A stretch of DNA of 64,000 bases from the NCBI GenBank assembly GCA_027483645.1, contig JAIXUD010000022.1, positions 1 to 64,000 on the forward strand, written 5' to 3'. Below the pieces are notes generated by a model that searched no databases, had not been told where the DNA came from, and worked only from the letters and a program-made list of their open reading frames with translations. The translations under genes and the position numbers were made by a program. Within the stretch, counting starts at the first letter, position 1. Every line of letters begins with the position of its first letter. This DNA is from Sphingobacteriales bacterium (lineage in GTDB: Bacteria > Bacteroidota > Bacteroidia > Chitinophagales > CAIOSU01). Below, piece after piece: positions 1 to 35,971 of this stretch.

Positions 1-3000
1 TTCTTGTGGAGCAACGGTGCTACTACCGAGGATATCACTGGCCTAACCGCTGGTACTTACAACGTAACCGTTACCGACCGCAACGGTTGTGTAAGCACTT
101 CTGGTGTAACTGTCCAACAGCCACAACCGGTTGTTGCAACTGCAACCCCTGTAAATATCGCTTGCTTCGGTGCTACCAACGGTGGCGTTAACCTAAGCGT
201 AACTGGCGGAACTACTCCGTTTACTTACATCTGGAGCAACGGCGCTACTACCCAGAACATTACTGGCGTTGTCGCAGGCACTTACACGGTGACTGTAACC
301 GACAGGAACAACTGTACCGCTACCGCAACAGCTACTGTTAACCAACAGAGCGCTTTGCAAGTAACAGTAACTCCAACTAACTTGACTTGCTTCGGCAACA
401 ACAGTGGTGCTTTGGCTACTACTGTAAACGGTGGCGTTGCCCCTTACACTTACACTTGGGGTGCTGGCCAGCCGACTACTGCCAACCGCAGCAACTTGGC
501 ACCTGGTACTTACAATGTAACCGTAACAGATGGCAACGGCTGCACCGGCACTGGCTCGGCTACGCTTACCCAGCCTGCTTTGTTGACTGCTAGCGCTACC
601 GGCTCTGCTGTGTTGTGCTTCGGTAACCAAACCGGTACTGTTGACTTGACCGTGGCTGGTGGTACTACTGCCTACACTTATGTGTGGAGCAACGGTGCTA
701 CTACCCAAGATTTGAGCGGCCTGGCTGCTGGTACTTACAGCGCAACAGTAACCGATGCTAATGGCTGCACTGCCACTGCATCTGCTACCGTTACCCAGCC
801 TACCTTGTTGACTGCAAGCGCTACCGGTTCTACCGTTAATTGCTTCGGCGACCAAACTGGTACAACTGACCTATCGGTAGCTGGTGGTACTGCTCCATTT
901 ACTTATGCTTGGAGCAATGGTGCTACCACTCAAGACTTGAGTGGCCTAGCTGCTGGTACTTACACCGCAACTGTTACCGATGCCAATGGCTGTACTACTA
1001 CCGCATCTGCAACGGTTAACCAACCTTTAGTATTGAGTGCTATTGGCACCAACACCAATGTGTTGTGCAACGCTGGTAACAACGCTAGCATTACTGTAAC
1101 CGTAACTGGTGGCAACACTCCATACACCTTCAACTGGGGTGGTGGCGTTACCACGCAGAACCGCACTGGCTTGGCTGCCGGTACTTACACGGTAACCGTT
1201 ACAGATGCTAAAGGTTGTATCGATACTGAATCGTTTACCATTACTCAGCCTACTGCCCTTACTGCGACTGCTACCCCGCAAAACGTTCGTTGTTTCTTGG
1301 GAGCTGACGGTGCGGTTAATACTACTGTAACTGGTGGCGTAGGCCCTTACACTTATCGTTGGAGCAACAACGCTACTACGGCTAACTTGACCGCTCTGCG
1401 CGTAGGTACTTATACTGTAACTATTACCGATGCCAACGGTTGTACTACCACGGCCAGCGCAACTGTAACCCAGCCTGGCCCGCTTACCTTGGGTAGCATA
1501 CCGGCCACGGTTAGCTGTTTCGGTGGTAGCAATGGTGCCATCAACTTGACCGTAACTGGTGGCGTATCTCCTTATACTTACCGTTGGAGCACTGGTGCTA
1601 CAACTATGGACATTAGTGGATTGGTTGCCGGTACTTACAACGTAACTGTTACCGATGCCAACAACTGTGTGGCTACCGTAGCAGTAACTGTAGTGCAGCC
1701 TCAACCTATCACTTTGAGCTTCGTGCCTACCAATGTAACCACCAACGGTGGCACCAACGGCGCGATTGACCTAAGCGTGGTAGGTGGTACTTCACCATTC
1801 ACTTATGTTTGGAGCAATGGTGGCACTACTCAAGACTTGACCGGCATCCGTGCAGGCAACTATTGTGTAACGGTAACCGATGTTAACGGCTGTACCGCTA
1901 CAGGTTGTCAAACCATTACCGAGCCTGCTTGTACTGGCTTTACCGCCTCTGCTGCTGGTACCAATGTCAACTGCTTCGGTGGTAGCAATGGCACTGTAAC
2001 GGTAACCGTAACGGGCGGTAGCGCTCCGTTTACCTACAATTGGGGTGGTGGCATTGCCACGCAAAACCGTACAGGTTTGGCAGCTGGTACTTATACCGTA
2101 ACCATTACAGATGCGGTACAGTGCGTAGCAACTGCTAGTGTAACCATTACCCAGCCAGCACAATTGGCAGCAACTGCCCTAGGTAGTAACCCAACTTGCA
2201 ACGGCCAAAACAATGGTTCAGTAGCCCTTACCGTAATAGGTGGTACTGCTCCGTTTACTTATGCATGGAGCAACGGTGCCACTTCGCAAAACCTTAGCGC
2301 TTTGGCAGGTGGCAGCTACACCGTGACTGTAACTGATGCTAATGGCTGTAGTGCTACCGCTAGCACATCGCTTACTACCCCAGGTGCATTGGCTATCTCA
2401 ACCCAAGTAACACAAGTACGTTGCTTCTTGGGTGCTGATGGTACCATTACGAATACCATAAGCGGTGGAACGCCTCCTTATACTTTCCGTTGGAGCAACA
2501 ATGCTACTTCGCAGAACCTTACCGCATTGCGCGCTGGCTCATATACCGTTACTGTTACCGATGCTAATGGTTGCTCTGCAATCAGAACCATAGTGGTTAC
2601 TCAGCCTGGTCCGCTTACTTTGGGTGCAAGCACTACAACGGTAAGTTGTTTCCAAGGTAGCAATGGCGCTATCGATCTTTCGGTAACCGGTGGCACTGCC
2701 CCTTATGTATACAACTGGAGCAATGGTGCAAGCATGCAAGACATTAGTGGCTTAGCTGCTGGTACTTACAACGTAACGGTTACTGATGCCCGGTTGTGTG
2801 TGGCTACTGTAGCGGTAAACGTACAACAGCCTGCGGCCATAGTATTGAATGCCAACATTACCCCGGCTTGTGCTGGTGGCAATAGCGGTGCCATACAGTT
2901 GAATGTGGTAGGTGGTACTTCTCCATTTACTTACAACTGGAGCAACGGCGCCACAACCAAAAACTTAGGCACGCTGGCTGCTGGTACCTACGCCGTAACT

Positions 3001-3050
3001 GTAACTGATAACAATGGCTGTGTTGTAACCAATAGCTTCCAAGTTGGCTC
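1..3050 (+). repeat. Array of 14 SprB-type units (about 225 bp each)
   Basis: Coding tandem repeat within the first protein. Units are similar in protein but diverged in DNA. A two-unit block whose first unit contains CFLGADG (starting near 1288) recurs near 2419, about 1,131 bp or five units later. That suggests past amplification in multi-unit blocks. Confidence 0.8.
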
Positions 3051-3756
3051 TAATGTTAATTGCCGTACCATAGAGTTCACTATCGATGTGATATTGGAAG
3101 GTCCGTTCCAGCAATCGAACATGATGATGCAGAACAAACTGCGCACCCAGTGTAACACGGTTCCATTGTTCCAGCCTTATGGTAGCCCAACAATGGGTTA
3201 CAGTGGTACCGAAAGCGTAGCTTCCCTAAGCAACGATGTAGTGGATTGGGTATTGGTTTCGTTCCGTTCGGGCATTGACCGCAACACGGAGATTTATAAA
3301 GTTGCTGGCTTGTTGAGCCAAGATGGAAAAGTAAGGACCATAACTGGTGATACTATCTTCCAATTGAACAGTAGCCCAAGCGACTCATTGTATGTAGTTG
3401 TGGAGCACCGAAACCATATGGGCATCATGAGCCCAGTAAAAATGTGTGCTGATCCTGCTAACGGCGGTGTTATCCCAGTTGACTTTACCCGTATGCAATC
3501 GTTCATTACTGGTGCGCCTGCAACTGCTGGCCAAAAAGTGGTGGGTACTGATGCAAACGGACCGATTTATGGTATGCACGCTGGCGACGGTGATTGCAAC
3601 TTCGACATCAACTCTAGTGATTTTGTAAACTTTGGTAGTGATTTCAATAAATTCGATATATATTCGCCGGGCGATTTTAACATGGACTGCGATTGTAACT
3701 CGAATGACTTGCCGAAGTGGTTGGGTAACTTTAACCAATTCTCTGGAGTAAGGTAA
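1..3756 (+). CDS. SprB-repeat giant surface protein, C-terminal part (5' end outside window)
   Basis: The frame is open from base 1, so this is the C-terminal 1,251 residues of a larger protein. Residues 1 to about 1020 are 14 tandem units of about 75 residues (the first partial). Each carries a Cys-Phe-Gly near its start, a YxWSNGATTQ core, a GLAAGTY turn and a VTVTDxNGC strand; this is the SprB-repeat pattern of Bacteroidota gliding and adhesion proteins. The last 230 residues are different: a beta-rich domain, then two Asp/Asn-rich loops (GDGDCNFDINSSDF and GDFNMDCDCNSNDL) that look like a dockerin-type calcium-binding tail. No CHU_C-type or type A T9SS tail is visible. It lies directly upstream of a second SprB-repeat gene on the same strand. 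Probably a secreted adhesin; export route and ligand are unknown. Confidence 0.85.
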   Translation, partial: FLWSNGATTEDITGLTAGTYNVTVTDRNGCVSTSGVTVQQPQPVVATATPVNIACFGATNGGVNLSVTGGTTPFTYIWSNGATTQNITGVVAGTYTVTVTDRNNCTATATATVNQQSALQVTVTPTNLTCFGNNSGALATTVNGGVAPYTYTWGAGQPTTANRSNLAPGTYNVTVTDGNGCTGTGSATLTQPALLTASATGSAVLCFGNQTGTVDLTVAGGTTAYTYVWSNGATTQDLSGLAAGTYSATVTDANGCTATASATVTQPTLLTASATGSTVNCFGDQTGTTDLSVAGGTAPFTYAWSNGATTQDLSGLAAGTYTATVTDANGCTTTASATVNQPLVLSAIGTNTNVLCNAGNNASITVTVTGGNTPYTFNWGGGVTTQNRTGLAAGTYTVTVTDAKGCIDTESFTITQPTALTATATPQNVRCFLGADGAVNTTVTGGVGPYTYRWSNNATTANLTALRVGTYTVTITDANGCTTTASATVTQPGPLTLGSIPATVSCFGGSNGAINLTVTGGVSPYTYRWSTGATTMDISGLVAGTYNVTVTDANNCVATVAVTVVQPQPITLSFVPTNVTTNGGTNGAIDLSVVGGTSPFTYVWSNGGTTQDLTGIRAGNYCVTVTDVNGCTATGCQTITEPACTGFTASAAGTNVNCFGGSNGTVTVTVTGGSAPFTYNWGGGIATQNRTGLAAGTYTVTITDAVQCVATASVTITQPAQLAATALGSNPTCNGQNNGSVALTVIGGTAPFTYAWSNGATSQNLSALAGGSYTVTVTDANGCSATASTSLTTPGALAISTQVTQVRCFLGADGTITNTISGGTPPYTFRWSNNATSQNLTALRAGSYTVTVTDANGCSAIRTIVVTQPGPLTLGASTTTVSCFQGSNGAIDLSVTGGTAPYVYNWSNGASMQDISGLAAGTYNVTVTDARLCVATVAVNVQQPAAIVLNANITPACAGGNSGAIQLNVVGGTSPFTYNWSNGATTKNLGTLAAGTYAVTVTDNNGCVVTNSFQVGSNVNCRTIEFTIDVILEGPFQQSNMMMQNKLRTQCNTVPLFQPYGSPTMGYSGTESVASLSNDVVDWVLVSFRSGIDRNTEIYKVAGLLSQDGKVRTITGDTIFQLNSSPSDSLYVVVEHRNHMGIMSPVKMCADPANGGVIPVDFTRMQSFITGAPATAGQKVVGTDANGPIYGMHAGDGDCNFDINSSDFVNFGSDFNKFDIYSPGDFNMDCDCNSNDLPKWLGNFNQFSGVR

Positions 3757-3883
3757 TTGAGAAGCGCATAAACATTAGGTTTTTATAAAAAGATTGAAAC
3801 GGATTAAAAATAAATAGTTGATTCGGAAAAAAAATAGCCCTAAAATGCATCCGTATTTAGTGCTACTACGTAAAAATGAGTCT

Positions 3884-6800
3884 ATGAGAAAATACTTATC
3901 ACTTGTTTGGGTTGTGCTTACCCTGCTTTTATTGGGTAATACTGCCAACGCTCAGACCTGTCCACCGGTCGGACCTAATATCGATATTAGGTTCAACAAT
4001 GTGCGACTGGATTGTGCCAATGATTCACTTTTCGTGGATATCGAGTTGAGTAATCCGACCGGTACCACGTATAGTGTATCCAGCATGAGCCTGCGTTTTA
4101 CCTATAACAGCAGCATGCTCGGCAACCCGCACATTAGCCAACAAATTATGGCTGGCTCGGCGAGTATTGCGCAGCAGAACAGCATCTGGTCATTTGGCTT
4201 GGTGGAGTTCTCAGCCGCCAACTCGATACCTACAGGTGGCGCTTGGCGTAAGGTTAGCACTCTTGGTTTCAAAGTGAATAACTTTAATGCCCAAGGAAAC
4301 AGCAACTGTATCGATTTGCGCTGGAATACTACATTGCCAGCCATTACTACGGCACAGCAGTGGGTGAGCTTTACTTGCCAACCCAATATGGTATTTACCA
4401 GTTACGGCACCAACTCAACTTGCATTATAGACTCGTGCAACACGACTAGTGGCGTTTTGGAACTTACCGCGTTGCCTACCAACGTAACCTGCACAGGTAC
4501 AAACAACGGTACGGTTGATTTAACAGTTACAGGGGGCACTGCTCCTTTTTCGTATTTGTGGAGCAATGGTGCTACTACACAAGATATTAGCAGCCTAGCC
4601 CCAGGTACTTACAGCGTAACGGTAACCGATGCCGCTAGCCAAACGGCTACCTTGGGCAGCCTAGTAGTAGGTAGTAGTAGCTTAACTGTGCAATATACAG
4701 TTGAAGATGCATCGTGCAACCAAACGGATGATGGTAGCATAACCATTAACAACGTTTTGGGTGGTACCCCACCATTTACTTATGCCTGGAGCAACGGCGC
4801 TACCACATCTAGCATTTCATTATTGGTTGCAGGCATATACAATGTAACCGTTACTGATGCTAATGGCTGCACAGGTATTGTAAACCGCATTGCGCTTAGC
4901 GAGCCAGCTGAATTTCAGTACAACGTATTTATTAACAACATTAGCTGCGCCGGCGGAAGCGATGGTGAACTGGACTTTACCCTAACCGGTGGAACCGCAC
5001 CTTATACTTACCTATGGGTTCGCTATGACTTGAATACTTATTTGCCGATTGATACTTTAGGTACCACCCAAGATTTGAGCGGTCTTACTTCTGGCCTTTA
5101 TGGTGTTGAAGTTGGCGATGCCAATGGCTGTACCGGTGCGGTATTCTTCTTATTAGTTGAGCCAGATCCAATCAATTTAATCGGATTGCCTTCTGACGTT
5201 ACTCCGGTATCGTGCGCAGGTGGCAACGATGGTAGCATCAATATCAGTGCCAATGGCGGTACGGGCGTTATTTCTTTCCAATGGAGCAACGGGACCCAAA
5301 CCGAAGACTTAGAGAACCTAACTGCGGGCACTTATACCGTAACCGCAACTGACTTGAGCGGTTGTACCGCTACCAAGTCTTTTGTAGTTACACAGCCAGA
5401 TACTATCAGCGTAGTTATCGACCCAATTGCTACCAGCAACGTTAGCTGCTACGGTGGCAACGATGGTACCATTAATATCACCGTAACTGGTGGTAATGGT
5501 GGTTTGGCTTTTGCTTGGAGCAATGGTGCTAATACTGAAGATATTGCTGGCCTTGCGGCTGGTACTTATAGCGTAACCGTAAGCGACCTTCTGGGTTGCC
5601 AAGGTGCGCTGGCAAACATAGTAGTTACCCAGCCCGACTCTTTAACCTTAACTGCAACGCCTACCGCGGTAAGCTGTAATGCATTTAATGACGGTACCGT
5701 TACCTTGACCGTAACTGGTGGCACTTCGCCATACACTTACAACTGGGGTGGGGGAGTGAGCACTGCAAACCGCAGTGGCCTATCTGCTGGTACTTATACC
5801 GTAACTGTAACCGATGCTGAAGGTTGTATCAAAACTGCTTCGGTAAGCGTAGGCACGGCTAACTGCCCGCCACTTGCCCGTAACGACATTAACAATACCC
5901 TGAAGAATGTACCGGTTAGTGGAGACATCTCTACTAACGATAGCGACCCTGATGGTGATGACCTTACTTTCACCGTAATCACAGGCCCAAGCAATGGTAC
6001 TCTAACAGCTTTCAACCCAGCAACTGGTACTTATACTTACACCCCTAACAACAATTTCGTAGGTGAGGATAGCTACACTTACTATGCTTGCGACAATGGT
6101 GTACCTAGCCTCTGCGATACCGCAACGGTTTACATCGAGGTTTTGGACGATCCGAAAGATCCGTTTAACAACCCGCCAGTTGCCAATGCCGATCACTTTG
6201 TAACTTATGTGAATACCCCAATTGGTAGCACTGTAATCAACAACGACTACGACCCTGATACTGCTGACCAAATTGCAGTAACCACTACTTTGATTGATGG
6301 CCCTAACAATGGTACCTTCCTAGTAAACCCTAACGGTAGCTTCTTGTATGCCTCTAACCCTGGTTATGTTGGCAAGGATACCGTTATTTACCAGTTGTGC
6401 GACAATGGCACCCCTGGCCCTAAGTGCGATACTGCAATCGTAGTAATCACCATATTGGAGAACCCGAACAACGGCCCAGGCAATCTGCCTCCGGTAGCCG
6501 TTGACGATGCGTTCTATACCGAATTGAATACGCCAGTTAACGGCACCGTAATCCCTAACGATTATGATGTTGATGGCAACCAGATTAGCGTTACTGTTCC
6601 ACAATTTAGTGGCCCTAGCAATGGTACTTTGACTTTGACCCCAGGCGGTGGCTTTATCTACACACCAAACCCTGGCTATGTAGGTCCTGACCAATTCGTG
6701 TATATCCTTTGTGATAATGGCGTGCCTAGCTTGTGCGATACCGCAACGGCTTACATCCTGATTCAGAATCCTGCGAATCAGCCGCCGATTGCGCGCAACG

Positions 6801-9800
6801 ACATTAACAATACCCTGAAGAACGTACCAGTTGACGGAGATATCTCTACCAACGATAGCGACCCTGATGGCGATGACCTAACCTTCACCGTAATCACTGG
6901 CCCAAGCAATGGTACTTTGACTTCATTTGACCCTGCAACCGGCACTTATACTTACACCCCTGACAACAACTTTGTTGGCGAGGATACTTATACCTACTTC
7001 GTTTGCGACAATGGCATCCCTAGCTTGTGCGATACGGCTACGGTTTACATTGAGGTGATTGACGATCCAAAAGATCCGTTCAACAACCCACCAGTTGCTA
7101 ATGCCGACCACTTTATCACTTACATCAACACACCATTCGGTAGCACTGTAATCAACAACGATTACGACCCTGATACTGCTGATGTGATTACCGTAACCGT
7201 TACTTTGATTCAAGACCCTTCAAACGGTACTATAATAATCAACGCTAACGGTAACTTTACCTACACGCCAACTACTGGCTTTGTAGGCAACGATACCTTA
7301 CAGTACCAGATTTGCGACAACGGTACCCCTGGGCCGAAGTGCGACATTGCTACTGTAGTAATTACCGTGTACGACAACCCAAGCAACCCGAGCAACTTGC
7401 CTCCAGTAGCGGTGGATGATGCGTTCTATGCTGAGGTGAACAACCCAATCAACGGTACTGTAATCCCTAACGATTATGATACCGATGGTAACTTAATCAG
7501 CGTAACGGTTCCACAGTTTAGCGGCCCAAGCAATGGTACTTTGACCATCAACCCTGATGGCAGCTTTACCTACGTGCCAAACCCTAACTACGTAGGCCCT
7601 GACCAGTTTGTATACATCCTTTGCGATAACGGCGTGCCTAGCTTGTGCGATACCGCAACTGCTTACATCCTAATTCAAAACCCTGCCAACCAGCCTCCTT
7701 TGGCTCGTAACGACATCAACAACACATTGGTGAATACTCCAGTGAGCGGTATTGTTGCTACTAACGACGAAGAACCGGATGGTGACAACGTAGTGTTTGG
7801 TCAGCTTACTGCTACCACCAACGGTACCATCAGCGGTTTCAACCCTGCTACTGGCGCTTACACTTACACTCCTAACGCTGGTTTCATTGGTACTGATGTG
7901 TTTACTTACCAGATTTGCGACGATGGCATACCTAGCTTGTGCGACACGGCAACGGTAACCATCCACGTAATACCGCCGTTCAACTATGATAACAACCCAC
8001 CAGTTGCTAACCCTGATGACTACGTTACGTACATCAACACGCCTGTAACTGGTACTGTTATCCCGAACGACTTCGATCCGGATACTGCTGACATTATTAC
8101 CGTAGGTATTACTTTGATTACCCCGCCAACCAATGGCACGGTAACCAGCATCAACCCTAACGGTACCTTTACTTATGTTCCAACAACAGGATTTGTTGGC
8201 GACGACACCTTTACCTACGTATTGTGCGATAACGGTAACCCTAGCCTGTGCGATACCGCATTGGTAACGGTGCACGTATTGCCTCCGAACGGTGGTGGCA
8301 ACTTGCCTCCTGTAGCGGTTGATGACGCCTATATTACTGAAGAAGGCATCGCCATCGTTAGCACCGTAATCCCTAACGATTACGACCAAGATGGTAACAC
8401 TATCACGGTTACGGTTCCACAGTTCACAGGGCCAAGCAACGGTACGTTGACCATCAACCCTGACGGTAGCTTTACCTACGTACCAAACCCTGGTTACACT
8501 GGTCCTGACCAATTTACTTACATCCTTTGCGATAACGGTGTACCTAGCTTGTGCGACACAGCAACTGCTTACATCACCATTTACAATACCATGCGTATTG
8601 CTTTGGATGACGACAGTGTAGATTGCTTCGGTGCGGCTACCGGCTCTATCGCCCTTACCGTAATCAATGGCAACGCACCGTTTACCTACTTGTGGAGCAA
8701 CGGCGCTACTACCCAAAACTTAACTGGTGTAATCGCTGGTATCTATAGCGTAACCGTAACTGATGCCTTTGGTGTAACAGTTGCCGGTACCGATACCATC
8801 GGCCAACCTGCTGCTGCCATTGCGGTTGCAGAAACCATTATCATACCTACTTGTAACGGACGTATCGATGCCTCAATAAGCATAGTAGCTACTGGCGGTA
8901 CTGCACCATACATATATGGTTGGACCGGCCCTGCTGGCTTTATCTCTAGCAACGAGGATATTACTGGCCTAGCAGCTGGTACTTATAACCTGACCGTAAC
9001 CGATGCCAATGGTTGTATCTACACCAACGCCTATGTGGTAACCCAGCCTGATGTGTTGGTAGCCACGGTAGATGGCTCAATACACATTGCTTGTAACGGT
9101 GGTAACACTGGCTCAATCGACATTTCTGTTGCTGGTGGTACGCCTACCTTTACTTATGCATGGAGCGGCCCTAACGGCTACACTGCCACTACCCAAGACA
9201 TTACTGGCTTGGCTGTTGGCACCTACACCGTAACGGTTACCGACATCAATGGTTGTACTGCTACCACCACTGATACCCTTACACAAAACCCAGAATTGGC
9301 TGTAACTGCTGATAGCATTACCAACGTAAGCTGTGATGGCTTGGCCAATGGCGCCATCGACCTTGATGTGACTGGTGGTGTTGCCCCTTACAGGTACTTG
9401 TGGAGCAACGGTGCTACAACCCAGGATATTACTGGTTTGACTGCTGGTACCTACAGCGTGACTGTTACTGACGGTGCAAACTGTACGGGTACTTCTAGCT
9501 TTAATGTAACACAGCCAGTATTGCTTACTGCTTCGGCCATTGCTGATAACAACGTAACCTGCTTCGGCGGTAACGATGGCAGCATCGACCTTACTGTAAC
9601 TGGTGGTACTACCCCTTACACTTACATTTGGAGCAACGGTGCAATTACTCAAGACCCTAGTGGCCTGGTTGCTGGCACCTACAATGTAACGGTAACTGAT
9701 GCACAAGGCTGTACAGCGAATGCATCGGCAACTATTACCGAAAACCCTTTACTGGAAGCAGCGTTGATTGATTCTTCTAGCATCTCTTGCTTCGGTGGTA

Positions 9801-17812: not shown

Positions 17813-17821
17813 ATGATAAAC

Positions 17822-17857
17822 GGTAAGCCGGGGCTGTAAAAAGCCCCGGCATTTACC
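17822..17857 (+). terminator. Strong hairpin after the giant adhesin (terminator or attenuator)
   Basis: GCCGGGGCT (17827-17835) pairs with AGCCCCGGC (17842-17850) across a 6-nt loop. An outer GGTAA/TTACC pairing extends the stem past a 2-nt bulge. There is no T-run after it, so it may attenuate rather than stop transcription into the PorP/SprF gene, or protect the mRNA 3' end. Confidence 0.6.
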
Positions 17858-19045: not shown

Positions 19046-19077
19046 ACGAAGAAATTACCCATTTGGTCTGTATATAG

Positions 19078-19116
19078 AAGCCCCGCTTTAGTCAAAAAAG
19101 GCGGGGCTTTCTTTTT
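19078..19116 (+). terminator. Rho-independent terminator after PorP/SprF
   Basis: AAGCCCCGC (19078-19086) pairs with GCGGGGCTT (19101-19109), followed by a T-rich run (TTCTTTTT). Confidence 0.85.
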
Positions 19117-19143
19117 GATGCTACTTTGAGTTCACCGATTACT

Positions 19144-19584
19144 GCAGGAATTACCCTTTGCTATTGACAGTGATGTGGTATAACCACAAAGTGCACAAAG
19201 GAAATCACAAAGAACATGAACCTCGTTATAAGTACTTAGTTGATTTAGTGCCATTTTCATAGTGTCCTTAGTGGTCAATTTTCTTCCAATATCAATGAAT
19301 TATACCCTTTGGATGTTTAAACCATGCTTATGGTGTAGTGAAGGTAAATACCAACAGCACGAAGAAAAGAACCCCAAAGTACCCTGAGCAATGCAACATT
19401 TCTTTGTGTTCTTTGTTTGCCTCTCTACTGGTATTTGTGGTTTATCCGTATAAACCACGCATATCAAGATAAGAAGCATGCAAAAGTCGAAGTGGTCTAA
19501 TGCAATCATTGTGTTCTTAGTGATTTCCTTTGTGCACTTTGTGGTTAGATAGCGCGCATGTAAATAGCAAAGGGTAGTTCCCAC
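19144..19584. repeat. Large palindromic non-coding element (about 440 bp)
   Basis: This fills most of the gene-free stretch 19046-19986. The arms are 19144-19217 and 19511-19584. A 28-nt core (19181-19208 versus 19520-19547, built on CCACAAAGTGCACAAAGG) is a perfect inverted match, and an outer block containing TACCCTTTGCTATT also pairs. The interior carries more CTTAGTGG/CTTTGTG motifs and a perfect 9-bp hairpin at 19437-19458. I see no transposase or plausible coding frame. It resembles a non-autonomous (MITE-like) or palindromic repeat element. The rest of the spacer (19585-19986) holds a hairpin near 19705-19730 (CTACCT/AGGTAG) and otherwise nothing I can name. Confidence 0.7.
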
Positions 19585-19986
19585 ATAACTGGGTGCTCAC
19601 GATGACACACTTTTGAAAGCAGCTCAAAATGGACACTTTTTTAAAAGCTTCAACGATATTTACTATCATTTTTAGCTAGAAGTTGCTTGCTGGTTTCCGC
19701 TACTACCTACCTTTAGGTAGCAGCTACTTGGGCGCTACGTGTTTTCAATTAGTATAATGTTTGCAGCCGTTGGTATTAGGGCTTTTTATATATGGAGGTA
19801 GAAGTGTAGATGTGCCAATGTTTTACCCCATTAATAAATATTTTGGCAAAGAACCTCTTACCTATTGCATTACGTTGAAATTGGCATTAACTTAACTCGT
19901 TAGTAACAAGCCGTAATATTGGGGTAACAAAAGGGGCAAATAAGGCAAGGTTGCAATTTTTTTTGGGAGAGATATACGCACAATAT

Positions 19987-28900: not shown

Positions 28901-31900
28901 CACAGAACGTGACCATTGCTAACTGCACTATTGAGGGCAACAACCAGTTGACCAACTCAGTAGGGCCCGGCGTAATCAACTTTGCCGGTTTGCTGGGTTC
29001 GGGTACGTTAATCACCAACATTACCATTAACAACAACATTATCCGTAACCGGAGTGACCTTACGCAAAATATTGCCAACTCTCCCAATACGTTGATCAAT
29101 ATCGGTGGTTTAAATGCAATGAGTTTGCCCTTGAAATCGAATATTACCATCTCGAACAACGAGATGTTTAATTTCCGCGAGAATGCTATTAACATACGAC
29201 AGAACTCTAGTTTCAGCGGTATTGGAGACAACATTACCATTACAGGTAATAAAATCTACGAGCCTATCAACTACAACTTGTACCAATATGTTGTTTGGCT
29301 AGAAGGTGGCACTAGTAGTAAAGGGCATACTATAAGCAATAATATTATTGGTGGTAATGCCTTGCCTAGCCCTGGCCTAACAGGCACTTGGAGCAACAAT
29401 AAATCAGATAGCGAAATATGGGCCATATACACGCTGAACGGCGGTACCAACATTAATGATGGTGTTACCATAAGCGGCAACACTATTGGCAACATGAACT
29501 TGAATGGCTATGGTTATGGCAATTTCTTAGGCATACGCAATGAGTTTGGCTATGCTAAGATTGAAAACAATATAATTAATGGTATTGCCAACTATGGCCA
29601 CGGCGCTGCTGAGACTGATGCCAGTGTTTGTATTGGTATTTGGAACGGCGATGAAAACGAAACCGAAATAGTGGGCAACGTAGTGTCCAACATCCGCGCG
29701 TTTTATGATGTTGCCTCAGGCTTTTTGCCATACCAGGCGGTATTGGGCATTATGCACGGTAGCAACTTTTATTTAAACGGAACGGATTTTACCAACTATC
29801 CGGGCGGTAAAATCAAATTGAGCAACAACCAAGTGTTTAACCTAAGCTCTGGTAGCTTGAACGCAACTGTTGGCACTCCGGATGCGCTCACGGGTATCTT
29901 CTGTTTCCCAGCCAATGGCACAACGGGTAATGAAGTTAGTGGCAACCAAGTGTACAACTTAAACTGCACCGAGGGCTGGACCAACAACGCAAATAATACC
30001 CGTATATATGGAATCGGTATTGGCCTAGGTGGCTATGGAGCAACTGCTGCTGGAGTAGTAAGCAACAACAAGGTATATGATATGAGCAATAATTCGCGAG
30101 CGAATGCCCCTGAAGTAAATGGCATTGTAGCCGCGGGCGGCAACTGGACCTTGGCCAACAACATGGTGAGCATAACCAATAGCGACTACCCAAATGGTAG
30201 GCCACTTATTGTAGGCTTGCTTGATTGGATGAGGAGTGGCCGCACGGGTGCCTTCTACAATAACTCGGTGTATATTGGCGGTACCGTAGTTGGCGGCAGT
30301 AACTCTAGCTACGCGTATTGCCGCATACCTGATGCACTTGCTAATGTAAATGGCGCAGCGGTTACCATACGCAACAACATCTTCTTTAACGATAGAACTG
30401 GTAATAGCACCAACAACATCGCTATTGGTAACCTCGGTACACTCAATACACCATCGGTAGGTTGGGATAGTGATTACAACTTCCTGCTAACGAGAAACAC
30501 CGGTCAAGTTGGCCGTTGGATAGGCACCACTTCTGGCGACCGTACCTTGTCTGGCTGGCAGACTACCAGTGGCGGTGATGCGAATAGCAAAACCGCAACC
30601 ATTACTACCGGAACTTCGTCTTCAACCGCTGCGAACCCTGCCGAGTTGTTCCTGAATACCGCCATTGGCGATTTGCATATTTCCCTTACTCCACCAAACG
30701 ACCCATGGCCATACAGCCATGTGCAAAACTTTGGTGAGACGCTAGCTGCACTTACGGTAGATATTGATGGGGACGCAAGGCCCTTGGGCAGCGCCTATGA
30801 TATGGGTGCGGATGAGTTTACCGCTTGCGCAACGCCTGTTGTTACCGCTAACCCTGCAAATGCCGCGGTTTGTGCATTGGGCGATACCAGCTTTGCTGTA
30901 ACCGCTACTGGTACAGGCATTGGGTATAGCTGGGAAGTGTCAACCAACAGCGGTAGCACTTGGAGCACGGTAGCCAACGGGGGTGTGTATGTAAATGCCA
31001 CCAGTTCAACCCTAGGTATCAACGATGCTACCAGCGGTATGAACGGCTACCAGTATCGCGGCATTGCTACCAATACCTGTGGTGCCGATACCAGTGCGGT
31101 GGCAACATTGACCATTAATGCATCACCCGCAGTTACGGTCTACAACCCTTCAAGCTTTAATAATAGCATCTGTGCTGGTAGCAATACCTTGTTTGGTGTT
31201 ACCGCTACCGGCGGCAGCCTTACCTACCAGTGGCAAACCTTCCCTAACGGTGGTAGTGCCTGGGCCAATGTAACCAATGTAGCGCCCTACTCCGGTGCTA
31301 CTAGCAACGAGTTGAGCATCGGCACCACCCCACAGAGCTTGGATGGATACCAATACCGCGTAATTGTATCTGGTAGCTGCGCGCCTCCTGACACCTCGAA
31401 CGTAGGCATACTTACTGTAACCGGCCCAGTGATTACCGCACAACCTAGTACAACCACCACCGTGTGCGATGGTGCATCTACTACTATTAGTGCCACGGCC
31501 AACGTAAGCAATTACCAGTGGCAAGTAAGCACCAACGGTGGCGGCGCATGGAGCAACTTGAGCAATGGGGGACCTTACAGCAATGTAACCACAGGTACGC
31601 TTACCATTAACCCGGCTAGTACTGCCCTTAACAACTACCAATACCGCGTAGTAGCTACCAACACCTCATGCAGCAATACCGTAAACTCCGATGCGAGCGT
31701 GTTGACGGTAAATGCTGCCCCTACTGCGGTTAGCGTTAGTGGCGGCGGCACGTGGTGCGGCAGTGCTACCCTTACCGCCACTGGCGGCACCGGCGGTACC
31801 ATCTACTGGCAGAATACTACCAGCGGTGGCACCAGCACTACTACGGCATCGTCAAGCGAAACAGTGAGCGCTTCGGGTACTTACTACTTCCGTGCACAGG

Positions 31901-32544
31901 GGGTAAATGGCTGCTGGAGCGCCGAGGGCAGCGCAACAGTAACGATACTGAGCGCACCTAATGCTGCTACCACTTGGACCGGGGACGTGGATAACGATTG
32001 GTTTAACTGGCAAAACTGGACTAATTGCACACCGGGCGCCATTACCGATGTTACCATACCTGCGGGCAGGCCAAACTATCCTGGTTTATACGGTTTAAAC
32101 CCTGTGGCCAACTCAGTTACCATTCAATCAGGCGGTACTATTACTTTGAACGGTGGCCGTACATTGATTACCACCGACTACATCAACAACCAAGGCACCC
32201 TTACCATGTCCGCTGCCAGCACCATTAGGCTGAGCGGAAACTGGACCAACACGGGTACCTTTAACAGCGGTAACGGTACAGTTGAGTTTACCGGTACGGG
32301 CACCAGCACTATCGCCGCTGGCGGTACGGGTACCTCCCAATCGTTCAACAACATTGCCATTACCAAAACGGGAGGCGCCAAGGTAACCCTAAGCAGCTCG
32401 GTGAAAACCAATGGCAACTTGCAGATAACTACTGGTGAGTTTGAAGTGCCTGCCGGTACATCCGCATTGCCGAATAATGTGATAAATACTACTAACGGCG
32501 CGATAAGGGTGAAAGCCGGTGCGCAGTTTAGGGTACAACCATAA
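19987..32544 (+). CDS. Giant beta-helix/Ig-like secreted protein (4,185 aa)
   Basis: Secreted repeat protein; function not recognised. The ATG at 19987 gives a signal peptide ending AFAQ; the frame is open to 19951 but the added residues do not improve it. Residues about 30-960 are beta-strand-rich Thr/Gly/Asn repeats starting WIGASGGSW. Three related modules then start near 22870, 25725 and 28515. Each opens with a GTVTVG- or YSVGTG-type motif, carries long runs of NNxI/SNNxI parallel beta-helix (PbH1-type) coils, and ends in a VDFDGDDRT...TDxGAD motif. Three Ig-like units of about 90 residues follow (from 30826), and then a WTGDVDNDWFNWQNW domain. The protein stops at FRVQP with no CHU_C or type A T9SS tail, which is odd for this kind of protein. 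It is monocistronic, with a terminator 22 bp after the stop. Confidence 0.85.
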   Translation: MNGKFTLGNKGVLLTLVLVCLMAGNAFAQTTYTWIGASGGSWAVSTNWTPTRTTPATTDILQFNSGTNVTVTALPLTQTIRQLLVTNNTTVALSSASTTTLSIAGPGATNNLVVASGSTLILGNTGLVNLTFITTASQRGDISGALQVGNSTFTTTFLTTAPGVTVAGSLTTLAATSVVTSIANGLNFAAGGTYNHQRDGGNIPTATWNAASNLNITGITVTMPTFVASTFGNFTWNNTSQTVNTGGPTAGISVAGNLNVSAGNLLTNSSTFAVTGTANVASGATFTSASGTKTFNNNLTITGTLVPGTATYTLAGANRVLTSASALTLVNLDVTGTWTSNPSLTLTGNLTGAGGLTMATGTTLTLGGTSTITTLNVITNAPTTVIYNGATGQSIKAIIYHNLVIDKGSSVGTAGGTIQVADDFTITSGTFTDGGASVVGTATGIFSVASGATYQTTRTATSWFPTGFVAANITLNNNSTFTYAGTAHTLPLLSTLPITQYPILGIANGTKTLAEATGVYGLNISSGTLTDGGFQITANASGPVIMASGTALNLGSATTGTTFPLNAVTANINLNVGSTVTYLSAQAQTVSSQPVYGILTLTNAGAKTVGGAITTVAGAFNMGTGSPTFNVNGQILVLRGGATYNAGATFNATVAGSEVRIENTAGQTYNFGTTTPLIRQLTMANSGVASITNSIDVAAFVINGSANLTVSNCTLGITGTYSNSGTISLNGGVTSVLAMKGTSAQNLAIGGYTSSVVGNLVIDNAAGVTLDLPINVTTISLNSGLLNTTGTNILQVNGLTAANIVGGSSTSYVNGPMRRLLPNGVSAVSFVFPVGKGDYNPFTLNSPTTNAATVVVQAEVVDAIAGGTAATGFSAAPTPARYWQVSASTSPANLTAIGSVRLRDTDMTITADNAIGRSATLTGAYSNFGGASPNSPATGDLTTSITLPTALGFFKIGERGSLCGAYSVGTGETFATLTDAVTVLNGANITCDVFLELTDNYSGAGETFPIVFNQLSYVGGPWRVTVRPHSSVTVNRVIAGAPASGLPLINLNGADRIIFDGVPGGSTGTNVIADSRLVLRNTQTTTPGPVVLIDNDALNDTLEYVQVEGQNITATSGLIVIGATATSVGNDNHAILFSTIRDRSDQTGVPLQAIYSVGSSTAGRTNDNITVANCNIFNFFVAGTGGYAINVGNYNNTWTIRNNSFYQTASRASSGLSLARGAISISTSGFGGDGFVVENNIIGGFQPDGGGTAYTITGSASTSTFTGILLNVNSAISAVPSTVSGNIIRNISFQTSSAATTAPGVFSGIHIGSNGYNVSVTNNQVGDTTGTGSITLTRTASGTTYGISFATNGFVTITGNRIGSFTITNTTTTTQANGFTGIFFSGGSSATLTRNISNNIIGSISTANNINLGTSSTTTAQSMYGIFSTSGIGDMTVENNTIANLTNNHTVASTGLVNHGINVTSGLVNISNNKIYNIASVSPSTGTGIAAVAAGIIMNSTGVSGHTISGNQIYNISNTSNGAVTVHGIFSAAGTSSKTTLNANLIHSLLATSTVSTTTINGILLSAGDYTASNNMIRLGLRVDGTTTAGASAVINGINEAAGVNDIYHNSVYIGGTFTNTVNSFALFSAVTTGTRNVMNNILVNERVNAGTGRNYAIRFANTTGLTSNYNDLFVTGTGTLLGQVNVTNYTTLADWQAGAAEDANSISSDPKFINAAGSAGVDLHIQAPPVSTPIEGTGFGVAVSFDFDGEDRTAFTPTDMGADAGDFEGIDLTAPAFGAFNITGVCNGATSHSFTVAITDASTVNVTSGTAPRVYYKKSGDANDLTGWKFVESASTSSPYTFNINFSTLNAGSVSPGDVLQYFVVAQDTAPTPNVGIATGTFTAAPTTVALTSGAFPIGGTIKTFSILPCSGTVTVGATGANYPSLTNAGGLFEAINATTLTGPLVANITTDLTLESGSVSLNQWLESGVGNYTLTIQSSAAAQRLITSTSAATTGLIRIVGADRTTFNGGTGTNRYLVFRNTITNATGASTFSFSGDASNNTINNCIIEGAAISTANGVISFGTGVSTGNDNNTITNSDISDNGTTPYNAIYSVGTTGTAVNNSGNNINNCNISDYHHPSGVSTGILLGTGNNSWTIENNHFFQTATRAAAAGIHSAININNNVANQGGYVITGNYIGGNAADGSGTMTYTSGLAAQYAPIYLPFVPASPASTVSNNIIDHISVSTISASTSGPGVFTAIYLGATTAPWTVTGNLIGDTTVNGSITATLNTNAGGHVNGIKIESTGSSNISNNKISGVSAVGGTGTNVTIHNYGINITTGNVTADNNLIGSTAVANSLQATSAAAGNGSIVGGILSVNGAGFAGAYTNNRILNLTNSIATTTSQVVGIVTSGGGQFTITGNTVATLNSNGSGTSGGTSSSVLGISVNSSNPVHTISNNTLYGLSCNSSTGANVTGIYYSGGTGSSIVSRNFVHSLKGANSTTGIVTGISLATAPVTASNNMVRLGIDTSGAALTTSQQITGISASNSSGTTAIYFNTVYIGGSGVGTTTSNSMALRTFASTGSINIRNNIFANARSNATTGGRHYAYFLANTTNVTSDYNLFYAPGTGGTLFTVNNGTTPLTTINALRLAAGGQNVNSGVDDPNLVDPTGNAADVDLHITGVTAADEAGIAISGISVDFDGDDRTDVSTTPTDIGADATDATPKDIVPPAVNVTTVPAQAACGGTLTVNITATVTDAATGVDTTTFPPTLWWRESTGTWASLAATSNTGSNWLFTLNLTGVVNGQTYQYYAAAQDLAATPNIGYSNYSASTPVHADVLTTPSTINTAPATFNIVAATPLSGTVTVGSGGTFTSFNANGATGLFFNLMTRGLSGNLVVKVVSDINESGLYYVLGDIPEYCGSNYTVTITPDSNLVRTIQQTSTTGGNPLINLAGCKRITFDGSFGGSGRYLTFASRVTGATTPTFYLNGNTQNVTIANCTIEGNNQLTNSVGPGVINFAGLLGSGTLITNITINNNIIRNRSDLTQNIANSPNTLINIGGLNAMSLPLKSNITISNNEMFNFRENAINIRQNSSFSGIGDNITITGNKIYEPINYNLYQYVVWLEGGTSSKGHTISNNIIGGNALPSPGLTGTWSNNKSDSEIWAIYTLNGGTNINDGVTISGNTIGNMNLNGYGYGNFLGIRNEFGYAKIENNIINGIANYGHGAAETDASVCIGIWNGDENETEIVGNVVSNIRAFYDVASGFLPYQAVLGIMHGSNFYLNGTDFTNYPGGKIKLSNNQVFNLSSGSLNATVGTPDALTGIFCFPANGTTGNEVSGNQVYNLNCTEGWTNNANNTRIYGIGIGLGGYGATAAGVVSNNKVYDMSNNSRANAPEVNGIVAAGGNWTLANNMVSITNSDYPNGRPLIVGLLDWMRSGRTGAFYNNSVYIGGTVVGGSNSSYAYCRIPDALANVNGAAVTIRNNIFFNDRTGNSTNNIAIGNLGTLNTPSVGWDSDYNFLLTRNTGQVGRWIGTTSGDRTLSGWQTTSGGDANSKTATITTGTSSSTAANPAELFLNTAIGDLHISLTPPNDPWPYSHVQNFGETLAALTVDIDGDARPLGSAYDMGADEFTACATPVVTANPANAAVCALGDTSFAVTATGTGIGYSWEVSTNSGSTWSTVANGGVYVNATSSTLGINDATSGMNGYQYRGIATNTCGADTSAVATLTINASPAVTVYNPSSFNNSICAGSNTLFGVTATGGSLTYQWQTFPNGGSAWANVTNVAPYSGATSNELSIGTTPQSLDGYQYRVIVSGSCAPPDTSNVGILTVTGPVITAQPSTTTTVCDGASTTISATANVSNYQWQVSTNGGGAWSNLSNGGPYSNVTTGTLTINPASTALNNYQYRVVATNTSCSNTVNSDASVLTVNAAPTAVSVSGGGTWCGSATLTATGGTGGTIYWQNTTSGGTSTTTASSSETVSASGTYYFRAQGVNGCWSAEGSATVTILSAPNAATTWTGDVDNDWFNWQNWTNCTPGAITDVTIPAGRPNYPGLYGLNPVANSVTIQSGGTITLNGGRTLITTDYINNQGTLTMSAASTIRLSGNWTNTGTFNSGNGTVEFTGTGTSTIAAGGTGTSQSFNNIAITKTGGAKVTLSSSVKTNGNLQITTGEFEVPAGTSALPNNVINTTNGAIRVKAGAQFRVQP

Positions 32545-32566
32545 TCTTTTTTCCATGATTGATTGC

Positions 32567-32600
32567 AAAGAGGCGCGCCGAATGGTGCGCCTCTTTTTTT
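32567..32600 (+). terminator. Rho-independent terminator after the 4,185-aa protein
   Basis: AAAGAGGCGC (32567-32576) pairs with GCGCCTCTTT (32587-32596), extended inward by a GCC/GGT pairing, with a GAAT loop and a run of T. Confidence 0.9.
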
Positions 32601-32669
32601 GGTTGTTCCGCTCAGCAATACTTTACATACACATAACGATTAGGCATCCATGGTATCAGGGTTTAGTTG

Positions 32670-32677
32670 TAACTTTG
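32670..32677 (+). promoter_or_regulatory. Candidate -7 box (TAACTTTG)
   Basis: An exact match to the Bacteroidota TAnnTTTG element, 21 bp before the ATG of the lamin-tail protein. No clear -33 TTTG is seen. Confidence 0.5.
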
Positions 32678-32698
32678 CACACTGACCGAAACTAGGAT

Positions 32699-35600
32699 AT
32701 GAGTTGTTTACGCTTGACCCTCGCAGTGCTGTTTGTTACCATACTGGCCGCATTGCCTTTACGTGCCCAATTGGTTATTAATGAACTATCTAACGGCACT
32801 TCGGGAGCTCAAGAATATGTGGAGCTTTTGGTGGTAGGCACCCCTAGTTGCGCTAACCCTTGCGTAGACCTTAGAGGCTGGGTGTTGGATGATAATAACG
32901 GCACCTTTGCTACTGGCACTGGCACCGGTATAGCTGGGGGGCATATGCGGTTTGCTAATGATGCAACCTGGCAATGTATTCCTATCGGTACTATAATCGT
33001 AATTTATAACAATACCGACCGCAACCCTGGGGTACCAGCCGATAACCTTACAGGTGCCAACTGTGTGTATGTGATACCAGCAAGCAGTACACTTTTTGAG
33101 CGAAATACTACTCAACCTTCAGCAACTGGGGTGGCTACTTATGCTGGGCCATACGTTGCTGGCGGCGATTGGGCCACCCAAGGTATGAGTAATACAGAAG
33201 ACAGTTACCAAACCCGCGCTCCTGGAGCACTTACTGTGCCCTACCATGCCGTAAGCTATGCAGGTAACAACGCTAACACTATCATTTACTTTGCCGGAGG
33301 TGGCGGTGGCCAAGTATATTCAATGACCAATGGTACTAGCAACGACCCGTTTCTGCAAACGAACTGGACCGCTGCCTCGGCCAGCACCAACCAGACACCT
33401 GGCGCACCCAACAATACCGCCAATGCTACCTGGATAGCTAGCTTGAATAACAACTGCAATCCGATTACCAGTGTAGTGGTTGACTTAGGCCCCGACGTAT
33501 CTGTTTGCCTTGGTGATAGCATTACCATAAGGGCAACAGCCAACGTAACTGGAACCTTTAGTTGGCCTGGTTTCCCTTTAAATAATACCGATAGCCTACG
33601 CATTGCGCCTACAGCCCCTATTGGCATTATTGTAAACTTTAATGGTGGTGTTGGCTGTACCGATGCTGATACCATTGCTATTAACATCATCGCCCCACCA
33701 ACAGGGGGCATCACCGGCAATACTGCCATCTGCGCCGGCCAAAGCACCACATTATCTGCTACAGGCGGCGGTACATACAACTGGAGCACCAGCGAAACAA
33801 CTACCAGCATCACCGTTTCGCCTATTACAAACACCTTTTATGATGTTACCGTTACCAATTCGGGCGGCTGTAGGGATACGGTAGGCATTAGCGTTACCGT
33901 AAACACACAACCGGTTGGACAAATAACTGGCGATAATAATATTTGCATAGGCGAAAGCACCACCCTCACTGCAAGTGGTGGCACCTCGTACGAGTGGAGC
34001 ACCACCGAGAATACGGCAGCTATTACGGTGTCGCCCCTCATTACTACCCCTTACTCTGTAACCGTGGTAGATGTGAACGGTTGCCGCGATTCTGTATTTG
34101 CGTTGGTAACGGTAAATGCCCCACCAACAGTGACCATCTCGGGTAATACCGCTATCTGCGCTGGCGATAACACGACCCTTACCGCCAGTGGCGGCGATAC
34201 TTACGTGTGGAGCACTACCGCAACCACCGCAGCTATAACCGTGAGCCCCCCAACCGATGCAAGCTACACCGTAACTGCAACCGATACTAATGGATGCGTG
34301 GGTACTGCAACGGCTACTGTTACCGTTGGGGCAGCCGTAACAGCGGCCATCACAGGCGACTTAACAATTTGCCAGGGCGAGAGCACTACCCTTACTGCAA
34401 CCGGCGGCACTATTTTTATATGGAGCACTAGCGAAACTACTAATGCCATTACAGTTAGCCCTACTATTAACACCACTTATAGTGTTACGGTAAGTAGCAG
34501 CCCTATTTGTTTTGATGTAGCAACGGTTACCGTTAATATTGATGCACCCACAGTGGGCGCCATAGCTGGCGATTTAACCATCTGCCCTGGTGAGAGCACC
34601 ACCCTAACGGCATCAGGTGGGGTAAGCTATCTATGGAGCACTGCCGAGGTTACCGCCCCTATTACGGTAAGCCCAATTACCAATACCACTTATACCGTAA
34701 CCGTAACCGGTGCCAATGGCTGCTTGGATACGGTGACTGCGGTAGTAACCATTGATGTGGCCCCAGTGGCCACGGCAGGGCCCGATACCATTATTTGCGA
34801 AGGCAACCCTGTGGTGCTTACGGCAACCGGTGGTGGCAACTACCTGTGGAGTACCAACGAAACTACTAATACCATTACTGTAACCCCAAGTACCAATACA
34901 ACCTATACGGTTACCGTTACTAGCGCCAATGGCTGCACCGCAACTGATGGCGCTACCGTAACTGTAAATGCAAATAACATAGTACTGGCCGTGGACAACA
35001 TTGCTGCCGAAACTTGCGAGCAAGTAAATGGGCAGATTACCCTACAGTCGCCGAGCAACTTTGTGACCTATGTGTTGGTGGAGAATGGCGCAAGGATAGA
35101 TAGCGTATTGGGTGGCGGGGTGTTTTTTGATTTGGATGGCGGTAATTATACCATTATTGCCACGGATAATAATGGCTGCCAACGCACCATAACGAATGTG
35201 CTAGTGCCGGAAACATTGATACCGCAAGCTACAGTTACTGCCACTACACCAACCTGCTTTGGCGATGCTAATGGAACCATTACGCTTACTTCATCCACTA
35301 CTGGCTTGTACTATAGCCTAGATGGAGGTACACCGCAGTTGAGCAGCACTTTTAGTGGATTGGTGGGTGATGATTACCAAATTCGCGTCATCGATTCCGT
35401 GGCTGGTTGCGATAACCTTATCGACTTTACCCTTACTCAGCCCGATGTACTGGAAGTATCGGTTTCGCCAGATAGCACCAACATTGTGCAAGGTGAGCAA
35501 GTGGAGCTGGTGAGCACCGTTACGGGTGGTACCACCCCGTACAGCTACTTATGGGTGCCTAGCACCGCTTTGGATTGCGATACCTGTGCAACGGTTACCT

Positions 35601-35971
35601 CTACCCCGCAAGACTCCCTGACTGCCTACACCCTCACCGTAACCGATACCAATGGTTGTGTGGACACTGCCCGCGCCGTGATAAGGGTTACCAACGAGTT
35701 TTTGATTACCGTACCGAGTGGCTTCACCCCTGATGGCGACGGCAACAACGATTTCCTTCGCCCACTATCCAATGAGCCTATTGATTTCACCCTAATGATT
35801 TTCAACCGTTGGGGCGAAAAAATATACCAAGGCGACGGCATGCCTGGCTGGGATGGCACTTATAAATACGAGCGCCAACCCATTGCCACCTACGTTTACG
35901 TCATCGAATACACCCGCCTCCTAAACGGCGACACCGGGTATTTGACAGGCAGCTTTACGCTGTTGCGGTAG
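32699..35971 (+). CDS. Lamin-tail/Ig-like protein with gliding-motility C-terminal domain
   Basis: Secreted T9SS cargo of 1,090 residues. The signal peptide covers residues 1-24 (cut near LRAQ). An LTD (lamin-tail) domain follows, with VINELSNG near its start and DLRGWVLDD. Six Ig-like units of about 80 residues then run from about 335 to 765, each with an ICxGxSTTLTASGG motif, a WST core and VSPxTNTTYTVTVT. A SprB-like unit (TCFGDANGTITL) comes next. The last 90 residues are a CHU_C-type domain (FTPDGDGNNDFL, IFNRWGEKIYQ, YVYVIEY), a recognised T9SS export signal. It has a candidate promoter of its own and sits after a terminator, so it is likely its own unit. Likely cell-surface; ligand unknown. 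Confidence 0.9.
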   Translation: MSCLRLTLAVLFVTILAALPLRAQLVINELSNGTSGAQEYVELLVVGTPSCANPCVDLRGWVLDDNNGTFATGTGTGIAGGHMRFANDATWQCIPIGTIIVIYNNTDRNPGVPADNLTGANCVYVIPASSTLFERNTTQPSATGVATYAGPYVAGGDWATQGMSNTEDSYQTRAPGALTVPYHAVSYAGNNANTIIYFAGGGGGQVYSMTNGTSNDPFLQTNWTAASASTNQTPGAPNNTANATWIASLNNNCNPITSVVVDLGPDVSVCLGDSITIRATANVTGTFSWPGFPLNNTDSLRIAPTAPIGIIVNFNGGVGCTDADTIAINIIAPPTGGITGNTAICAGQSTTLSATGGGTYNWSTSETTTSITVSPITNTFYDVTVTNSGGCRDTVGISVTVNTQPVGQITGDNNICIGESTTLTASGGTSYEWSTTENTAAITVSPLITTPYSVTVVDVNGCRDSVFALVTVNAPPTVTISGNTAICAGDNTTLTASGGDTYVWSTTATTAAITVSPPTDASYTVTATDTNGCVGTATATVTVGAAVTAAITGDLTICQGESTTLTATGGTIFIWSTSETTNAITVSPTINTTYSVTVSSSPICFDVATVTVNIDAPTVGAIAGDLTICPGESTTLTASGGVSYLWSTAEVTAPITVSPITNTTYTVTVTGANGCLDTVTAVVTIDVAPVATAGPDTIICEGNPVVLTATGGGNYLWSTNETTNTITVTPSTNTTYTVTVTSANGCTATDGATVTVNANNIVLAVDNIAAETCEQVNGQITLQSPSNFVTYVLVENGARIDSVLGGGVFFDLDGGNYTIIATDNNGCQRTITNVLVPETLIPQATVTATTPTCFGDANGTITLTSSTTGLYYSLDGGTPQLSSTFSGLVGDDYQIRVIDSVAGCDNLIDFTLTQPDVLEVSVSPDSTNIVQGEQVELVSTVTGGTTPYSYLWVPSTALDCDTCATVTSTPQDSLTAYTLTVTDTNGCVDTARAVIRVTNEFLITVPSGFTPDGDGNNDFLRPLSNEPIDFTLMIFNRWGEKIYQGDGMPGWDGTYKYERQPIATYVYVIEYTRLLNGDTGYLTGSFTLLR

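Follow-up and report, generated by a model that had tools for sequence, protein, structure and literature searches.

The window analysed here, bases 1-64000 of contig C1 in a Bacteroidota genome assembly (4.27 Mb, 23 contigs, 97.85% complete), begins with five contiguous genes on the plus strand, encoding P0001, P0002, a PorP/SprF-family protein (P0003), P0004 and P0005. We propose, at a probability of about 0.68, that P0002 is exported by the type IX secretion system (T9SS) and holds P0001 on the cell surface by calcium-dependent docking of a dockerin onto a cohesin; the first three genes would then encode a two-protein surface assembly together with its shuttle. Confidence was set at this level because most genes that follow an X-dockerin gene lack a cohesin-like domain by the profile used. 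The open reading frames (ORFs) of the four giant proteins span positions 1-3756 (P0001), 3818-17812 (P0002), 19951-32544 (P0004) and 32699-35971 (P0005), and their lengths (1,251, 4,642, 4,185 and 1,090 amino acids (aa)), order and strand were as described in the original prediction, made from the letters of this DNA.

The C-terminus of P0001 and the N-terminus of P0002

The C-terminal 234 aa of P0001 gave no Pfam or NCBIfam match at E ≤ 0.1 and contained no type A or type B sorting domain. An assignment of P0001 as a Por_Secre_tail protein was rejected, the best Pfam and NCBIfam stretches lying on internal repeats (530-555 and 306-333) and the C-terminal 234 aa giving none on their own. Structure prediction showed, by computation, that the modelled tail has the fold of an X-module–dockerin dyad. 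The AlphaFold2 model, built from a 63-sequence alignment, had a mean predicted local distance difference test score (pLDDT) of 91.3 and a predicted template modelling score (pTM) of 0.90. VIA-align comparison with the PDB placed clostridial type II cellulosomal X-dockerin chains in the top eight positions (Z 10.6-9.7, 144-152 residues aligned), followed by entries of other folds at Z 6.5 and 5.0. Six of these eight entries are titled as such chains, and the remaining two, 3kcp and 4fl4, are likewise type II X-dockerin chains. In agreement with this result, Foldseek returned 4u3s_B as the best match (E 1.7e-4), and nine of its ten top matches were X-dockerin chains. The dyad would consist of an X-module-like beta sandwich (3064-3570, plus strand; model-based, with an approximate boundary) and a dockerin-like module (3571-3753, plus strand) that reaches the last codon before the stop.

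Sequence comparisons pointed to the same family. When positions 151-204 of the tail profile were searched against the PDB, the best eight sequences were cellulosomal dockerin chains (E 0.0024-0.019). Two putative F-hand calcium loops were recognised by eye from an acidic/Asn pattern in both repeats, and D190, D208 and D219 were invariant in alignment A3. Dockerin_1 (PF00404) was the commonest Pfam match among the tail relatives (25/63 at E ≤ 0.1, best 1.1e-6), and NCBIfam dockerin_GC was matched by 15/63 at E ≤ 0.01.

P0001 itself is truncated by the assembly, as base 1 of the window is also base 1 of contig C1. The window part (1-3756, plus strand, open at its 5' end) is the 3' part of a giant SprB-repeat protein and accounts for 1,251 of ~3,915 aa, the 5' part being at the end of contig C15 (L284). 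The last 119 bp of contig C15 are exactly window bases 1-119, in frame, and a stretch of the homologue in the congener G003 matches (88% identity) an open frame of 2,738 aa in the terminal part of contig C15, which indicates, from sequence comparison, that the two contigs adjoin inside the P0001 gene. The full length of ~3,915 aa follows from the coordinates, and the start was judged by eye to be signal-peptide-like. Unsplit homologues of 4,147 and 5,647 aa were found in the congeners G003 and G004. The worry raised earlier that the genes might be collapsed or fused copies is thus answered in part: P0001 was split by a contig break and its counterparts are intact.

P0002 (3884-17812, plus strand; 4,642 aa from the ATG at 3884) has a start that looks by eye like a signal peptide, followed by a cohesin-like domain (3974-4372, plus strand), SprB and Big_9 repeats and a C-terminal CHU_C (T9SS type B) domain (17537-17791, plus strand; E 1.7e-26). 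The P0003 gene (18071-19045, plus strand), assigned to the PorP/SprF family of outer membrane proteins by PF11751 (E 5e-74) and TIGR03519 (E 8e-76), lies in the cognate position for this type B domain. P0002 and P0003 display the features of a T9SS type B pair, namely a C-terminal CHU_C domain with an adjacent PorP/SprF gene, in a genome that also encodes SprA_N. SprB stretches numbered 13 in the window part of P0001 and 44 in P0002, which also has 10 Big_9 stretches; it is in these repeats that the likeness of both proteins to the SprB gliding adhesin appears to lie.

The N-terminal domain of P0002 is likely to be a cohesin, judging from profile comparisons. The N-terminus is related to that of L005 (phmmer, 5e-5), a protein that itself ends in an X-dockerin. 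Profile A5, which describes the P0002-type N-terminus, matched nine PDB sequences, eight of them scaffoldin cohesins (E 0.0017-0.57), the best over nearly the whole domain; with the wider profile A11, all three matches were scaffoldin cohesins, at weaker scores (E 0.17-2.1). Among Pfam families, Cohesin (PF00963) gave the best E-value on the cohesin-like family (0.0038), two of 27 members matching at E ≤ 1.

Within this genome the two modules lie side by side, one of each having been found. A single-sequence search in which all four candidates were scored gave one clear X-dockerin, the P0001 tail, and a further match that is doubtful (E 0.016, 26% identity); a profile search for the tail module, in which 7 of 14 candidates were scored, yielded a single match. 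For the cohesin-like module there was likewise one match, the P0002 domain (C1:3974-4372, E 4e-27; all 27 candidates scored).

Linkage of genes for the two modules across Bacteroidota

Relatives of the P0001 tail were found in 22 of 99 kin genomes and, in a draw of 392 genomes from the phylum, in at least 56; the phylum counts, and the co-occurrence counts from that same search, are lower bounds, at most seven candidates having been scored per genome. At least 587 stretches in named genomes carry the code for the module; the best 80 loci, which were kept, come mostly from metagenome-assembled genomes titled Chitinophagales or Bacteroidetes. In the 181 distinct ORFs that carry the module and have a visible stop, the protein ends no more than 2 aa after it in 148 cases and no more than 25 aa after it in 171. 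Two secreted proteins, L140 (170-2131) and L169 (117-1736), carry an X-dockerin-like module right after the signal peptide.

Analysis of gene neighbourhoods indicated a directional linkage between X-dockerin genes and cohesin-like genes. A cohesin-like profile grown regardless of gene position matched 34 ORFs at E ≤ 0.01, and 27 of these were the gene right after an X-dockerin gene; the other seven comprised four X-dockerin proteins themselves and three ORFs that were neither (a homologue of P0002 whose sequence piece lacks the upstream gene, one unplaced ORF and one at position -2). With seed loci and duplicates excluded, the domain was present (E < 1e-3) in 20 of 106 same-strand next genes versus 1 of 814 other nearby genes, and in 1 of 178 X-dockerin ORFs. 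The associated p value of 6e-19 serves as a guide only, since it treats genes as independent and related genomes are not; with duplicate loci still in, the count was 20/110 versus 1/815. By source of loci, next genes and other genes carried the domain in 16/56 versus 1/274 cases in the phylum draw, 3/36 versus 0/528 in the named loci and 2/20 versus 0/14 in the kin loci.

The phylum draw supplied 60 regions with 72 placed X-dockerin ORFs; the next gene was on the same strand in 63 cases and on the opposite strand in nine. Fifty-four of the 63 next-gene proteins were kept, seven being dropped as X-dockerins themselves and two for a gap above 400. The NCBIfam type A signal was matched by 30 of these 54 proteins; 29 matched Pfam Por_Secre_tail and 10 CHU_C, and at least one of the latter (L203) also carried a type A signal. 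Three N-terminal profiles, A5, A9 and A10, matched 15, 18 and 14 of the 54 proteins, with a union of 41, counts that are descriptive since the profiles were partly built from this same set. The gaps preceding those 41 genes ranged from -122 to 284, and 35 fell within -62 to 60 (measured between open frames, starts unchecked). A10 found no cohesin in the PDB (PorV, 0.41; heparinase, 1.5); it resembles A5 better than A9 does (97%), but three members are common to both.

At the level of genomes, cohesin-like domains were found in 27 of 40 module-positive versus 1 of 40 module-negative genomes, a comparison that is partly circular, as 17 of the positives fed profile A5. Without the A5-source genomes the ratio was 10/23 versus 1/40 (p 8e-5), and 9/22 (p 2e-4) when the congener G003 was also left out; four of those matches (G201, G248, G365 and G399) were weak (E 1e-9 to 1e-7). 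In one family of the same order, four genomes (G017, G033, G077 and G097) encode at least 28 X-dockerin proteins each, together with fewer cohesin-like matches (5, 5, 10 and 21 at E ≤ 0.001). These numbers resemble a many-to-few arrangement, as in a cellulosome. G091, of the same family, encodes 18 X-dockerin proteins and gave no cohesin-like match.

Several observations weigh against the proposed docking. On the dockerin side, the P0001 tail sequence itself did not match Dockerin_1, the EF-hand families or dockerin_GC, two EF-hand families match 14 and 11 of its 63 relatives, and EF-hand PDB chains appear lower in the profile list. On the cohesin side, the P0002 domain gave no match to Pfam Cohesin, its AlphaFold2 model from five sequences was poor (pLDDT 53.7), and Foldseek on that model, which carries little weight, returned CBM3 for the most part, a cohesin standing at rank 6. 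The linkage is also incomplete: 86 of the 106 next genes lack the domain by this profile, including 33 of 36 in the named loci from module-rich genomes; 13 of the 54 next genes fit none of A5, A9 and A10; and A5 had no match in 13 of 40 module-bearing genomes. A9, matched by a second group of next genes (18 of 54), resembles A5 weakly (77%), and no cohesin appeared among its PDB matches (flavin reductase, 0.65; obscurin, 2.2). Furthermore, L140 and L169 continue for 360 and 287 aa beyond their N-terminal modules, and the export of P0001 is not accounted for by the docking itself.

Proposed display of P0001 and competing explanations

Known families suggest how the assembly would be built. P0002, as a classical type B substrate, would be exported by the T9SS, and the product of the downstream PorP/SprF gene would hold it, so that its N-terminus, the end furthest from the cell, would present the cohesin-like domain. 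The P0001 dockerin would bind this domain in a calcium-dependent manner and P0001 would be displayed at the tip of P0002, giving a two-stage adhesin with ~3,900 aa mounted on ~4,600 aa. Docking of this kind would account for the retention at the surface of a protein that lacks a recognised sorting tag. P0001 would cross the outer membrane by the T9SS in some form, and two options are live: hitchhiking, or a signal within the dyad. The original prediction had supposed that giants lacking a CHU_C tail use another export signal or share the partner. P0001 and P0004 do lack a type A or B tail and need another explanation; sharing fits P0001 in a way that was not foreseen, through an X-dockerin tail beside a cohesin-like neighbour.

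Under hitchhiking, X-dockerin proteins with a signal peptide and no type A or B domain would already be bound to their cohesin partner in the periplasm and would pass through the outer membrane as passengers of the partner's T9SS signal. The position of the cargo gene, immediately before a signal-bearing cohesin gene, would thereby be explained; we consider the route itself rather unlikely. If it were used, T9SS export would extend beyond proteins that carry their own C-terminal domain (CTD).

The alternative that survives best, which we nevertheless regard as unlikely, is that the X-dockerin is an unrecognised third T9SS sorting signal beside types A and B, with the cohesin-like adjacency being secondary. 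The position of the module at the extreme C-terminus leaves no room for a type A or B domain behind it, and four genomes of one family hold at least 28 module copies beside at least 86 type A domains each. SprA_N was found in all 56 module-bearing genomes of the phylum draw but was nearly as common in genomes without the module (22/24), and this co-occurrence was set aside as uninformative about T9SS dependence. The tail fold is that of an X-dockerin, the one T9SS CTD noticed among the rows listed standing at background (8qb1_C, Z 4.0). L140 and L169 bear the module N-terminally, and the linked cohesin-like gene would stay unexplained if the module were a sorting signal.

A second alternative, that P0001 and P0002 are independent adhesins in one operon whose modules serve other contacts (other cells or self-assembly), appears distinctly improbable. 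Docking of P0001 on P0002 is a computational prediction, and three proteins (L005, L027 and L134) carry a cohesin-like N-terminus and an X-dockerin C-terminus on one chain, which would allow chains instead of pairs; these three could, from their sequences, form head-to-tail chains. Independent adhesins would, however, leave aside the directional next-gene linkage and the presence of one of each module side by side in this genome.

Display of P0001 through its partner, the explanation that we favour, was compared with known systems. According to the available text of PMC12618676, SprB/SprF-type pairs comprise a type B substrate that is exported by the T9SS and kept at the surface with its cognate PorP/SprF protein. 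P0002 and P0003 resemble the pair described there in their repeats, in the type B CTD and in having the shuttle next door; they differ by the N-terminal cohesin-like domain and the upstream X-dockerin gene, neither of which that text mentions. The clostridial type II cohesin/X-dockerin complexes (2b59, 3kcp, 4u3s and 5m0y) have the same C-terminal dyad fold, and the partner profile finds cohesins. A cellulosome is recognised by a several-cohesin scaffoldin with dockerin enzymes, whereas here one cohesin-like domain was found in the genome, the partner has SprB repeats together with a T9SS signal, and Pfam revealed neither an enzyme domain nor a cellulose-binding domain in P0002 or the window part of P0001.

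The nearest printed case found was Ca. Stygibacter (Cloacimonadota), for which the accessible portion of PMC8542988 describes a tandem-cohesin scaffoldin with an attachment CTD and dockerin enzymes, and cites a T9SS review for the CTD. As proposed here, a conserved CTD would fix a cohesin protein to the cell that makes it, with dockerin proteins docked on it (PMC8542988, same portion). That system is multi-cohesin and enzyme-bearing and was found with InterPro domains; the present one has a single cohesin-like domain, modules below the Pfam cut-offs, a gene pair and giant adhesins. Dockerins (PF00404) are also reported in Bacteroidales single-cell genomes from the cockroach gut, with a cohesin only in a Christensenellales genome (PMC10266427, in part); this places dockerin domains in Bacteroidota, but the part available gives no partner or gene pair. 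No description of an X-dockerin/cohesin-like gene pair was found in the open-access literature, subscription papers being outside the scope of the search.

If our proposal is correct, some large secreted proteins of Bacteroidota in which no T9SS signal is recognised would be displayed via a partner, and secretome lists built on type A and B signals would miss a class of proteins. An extreme C-terminal X-dockerin with an adjacent cohesin-like gene would provide a readable rule for assigning partners from sequence, and the two modules a small binding pair for probing T9SS export of proteins without a CTD. The cohesin–dockerin plug would also have a place in giant adhesins, away from the digestion of plant fibre.

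Two units and the C-terminus of P0004

The five genes form two independent units: unit 1 (1-19045), containing the P0001, P0002 and PorP/SprF genes, and unit 2 (19987-35971), containing the P0004 and P0005 genes. The order P0001–P0002–PorP/SprF is kept in G003, with other genes downstream. In G004 the P0001–P0002 pair is kept and the contig ends there, so that PorP/SprF is visible only in G003 of these two congeners. In G003 the homologues of P0004 and P0005 are neighbours, ~167 kb from unit 1, and they are neighbours in G002 as well, where neither the X-dockerin nor the cohesin-like module of unit 1 was found; P0004-P0005 was therefore considered a separate unit. The original prediction, one large gliding or adhesin locus with mixed export signals around a single PorP/SprF gene, agrees with the five contiguous same-strand genes seen here but is very improbable given this synteny, a terminator-like hairpin with a T run 3' of the PorP/SprF gene (19077-19110, plus strand; from a pattern scan, which is not proof) and the 905-bp gap between the units, which holds a 367-bp element (19181-19547, no strand) bounded by 36-nt near-perfect terminal inverted repeats (97%).

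The single PorP/SprF gene is not odd in this genome. Over the cut-offs, the whole genome gave 22 PorP/SprF and 37 CHU_C matches; PorP/SprF lies within 1.5 kb downstream of 12 of the 37 CHU_C places and is lacking there for the other 25. Hidden Markov model searches bore out the expectation that two of the four giants carry CHU_C: besides P0002, P0005 (32699-35971, plus strand; 1,090 aa) ends in an orphan type B CHU_C domain (35705-35944, E 6.6e-13), and no other C-terminal type B domain was found among the four. Its orphan status is ordinary, because of these 25 places and also in view of the available text of PMC12618676. P0001 and P0002 have SprB stretches and P0005 has Ig_7 stretches; P0004 is not an SprB protein, as Pfam and NCBIfam gave no SprB match, only weak Ig_7 and choice_anch_Q matches below the cut-offs.

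P0004 (19987-32544, plus strand; 4,185 aa from the ATG at 19987) has a start that is signal-peptide-like by eye, and a terminator-like hairpin with a T run lies just 3' of it, within unit 2 (32567-32596, plus strand; again a pattern scan and not proof). Pfam and NCBIfam revealed no type A or B C-terminal domain, and the protein ends in the same way in two congeners; a truncated or frameshifted gene was ruled out, as the end is conserved in G002 and G003. The C-terminal module (32032-32541, plus strand), a second recurrent one without an assignment, corresponds to the last ~170 aa, which recur at the C-termini of other large proteins in the same family of genomes; the seven distinct proteins examined come from this genome (three), G002 (two), G003 and G004. 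Places outside the window include L287 6605-7114 and L289 4282-4791 (minus strand), with no type A or B signal behind the module. The module was scanned for in plus frames in one scan, and partial matches elsewhere were internal. In the seven proteins, whole-model matches end at the stop or no more than ~10 aa from it.

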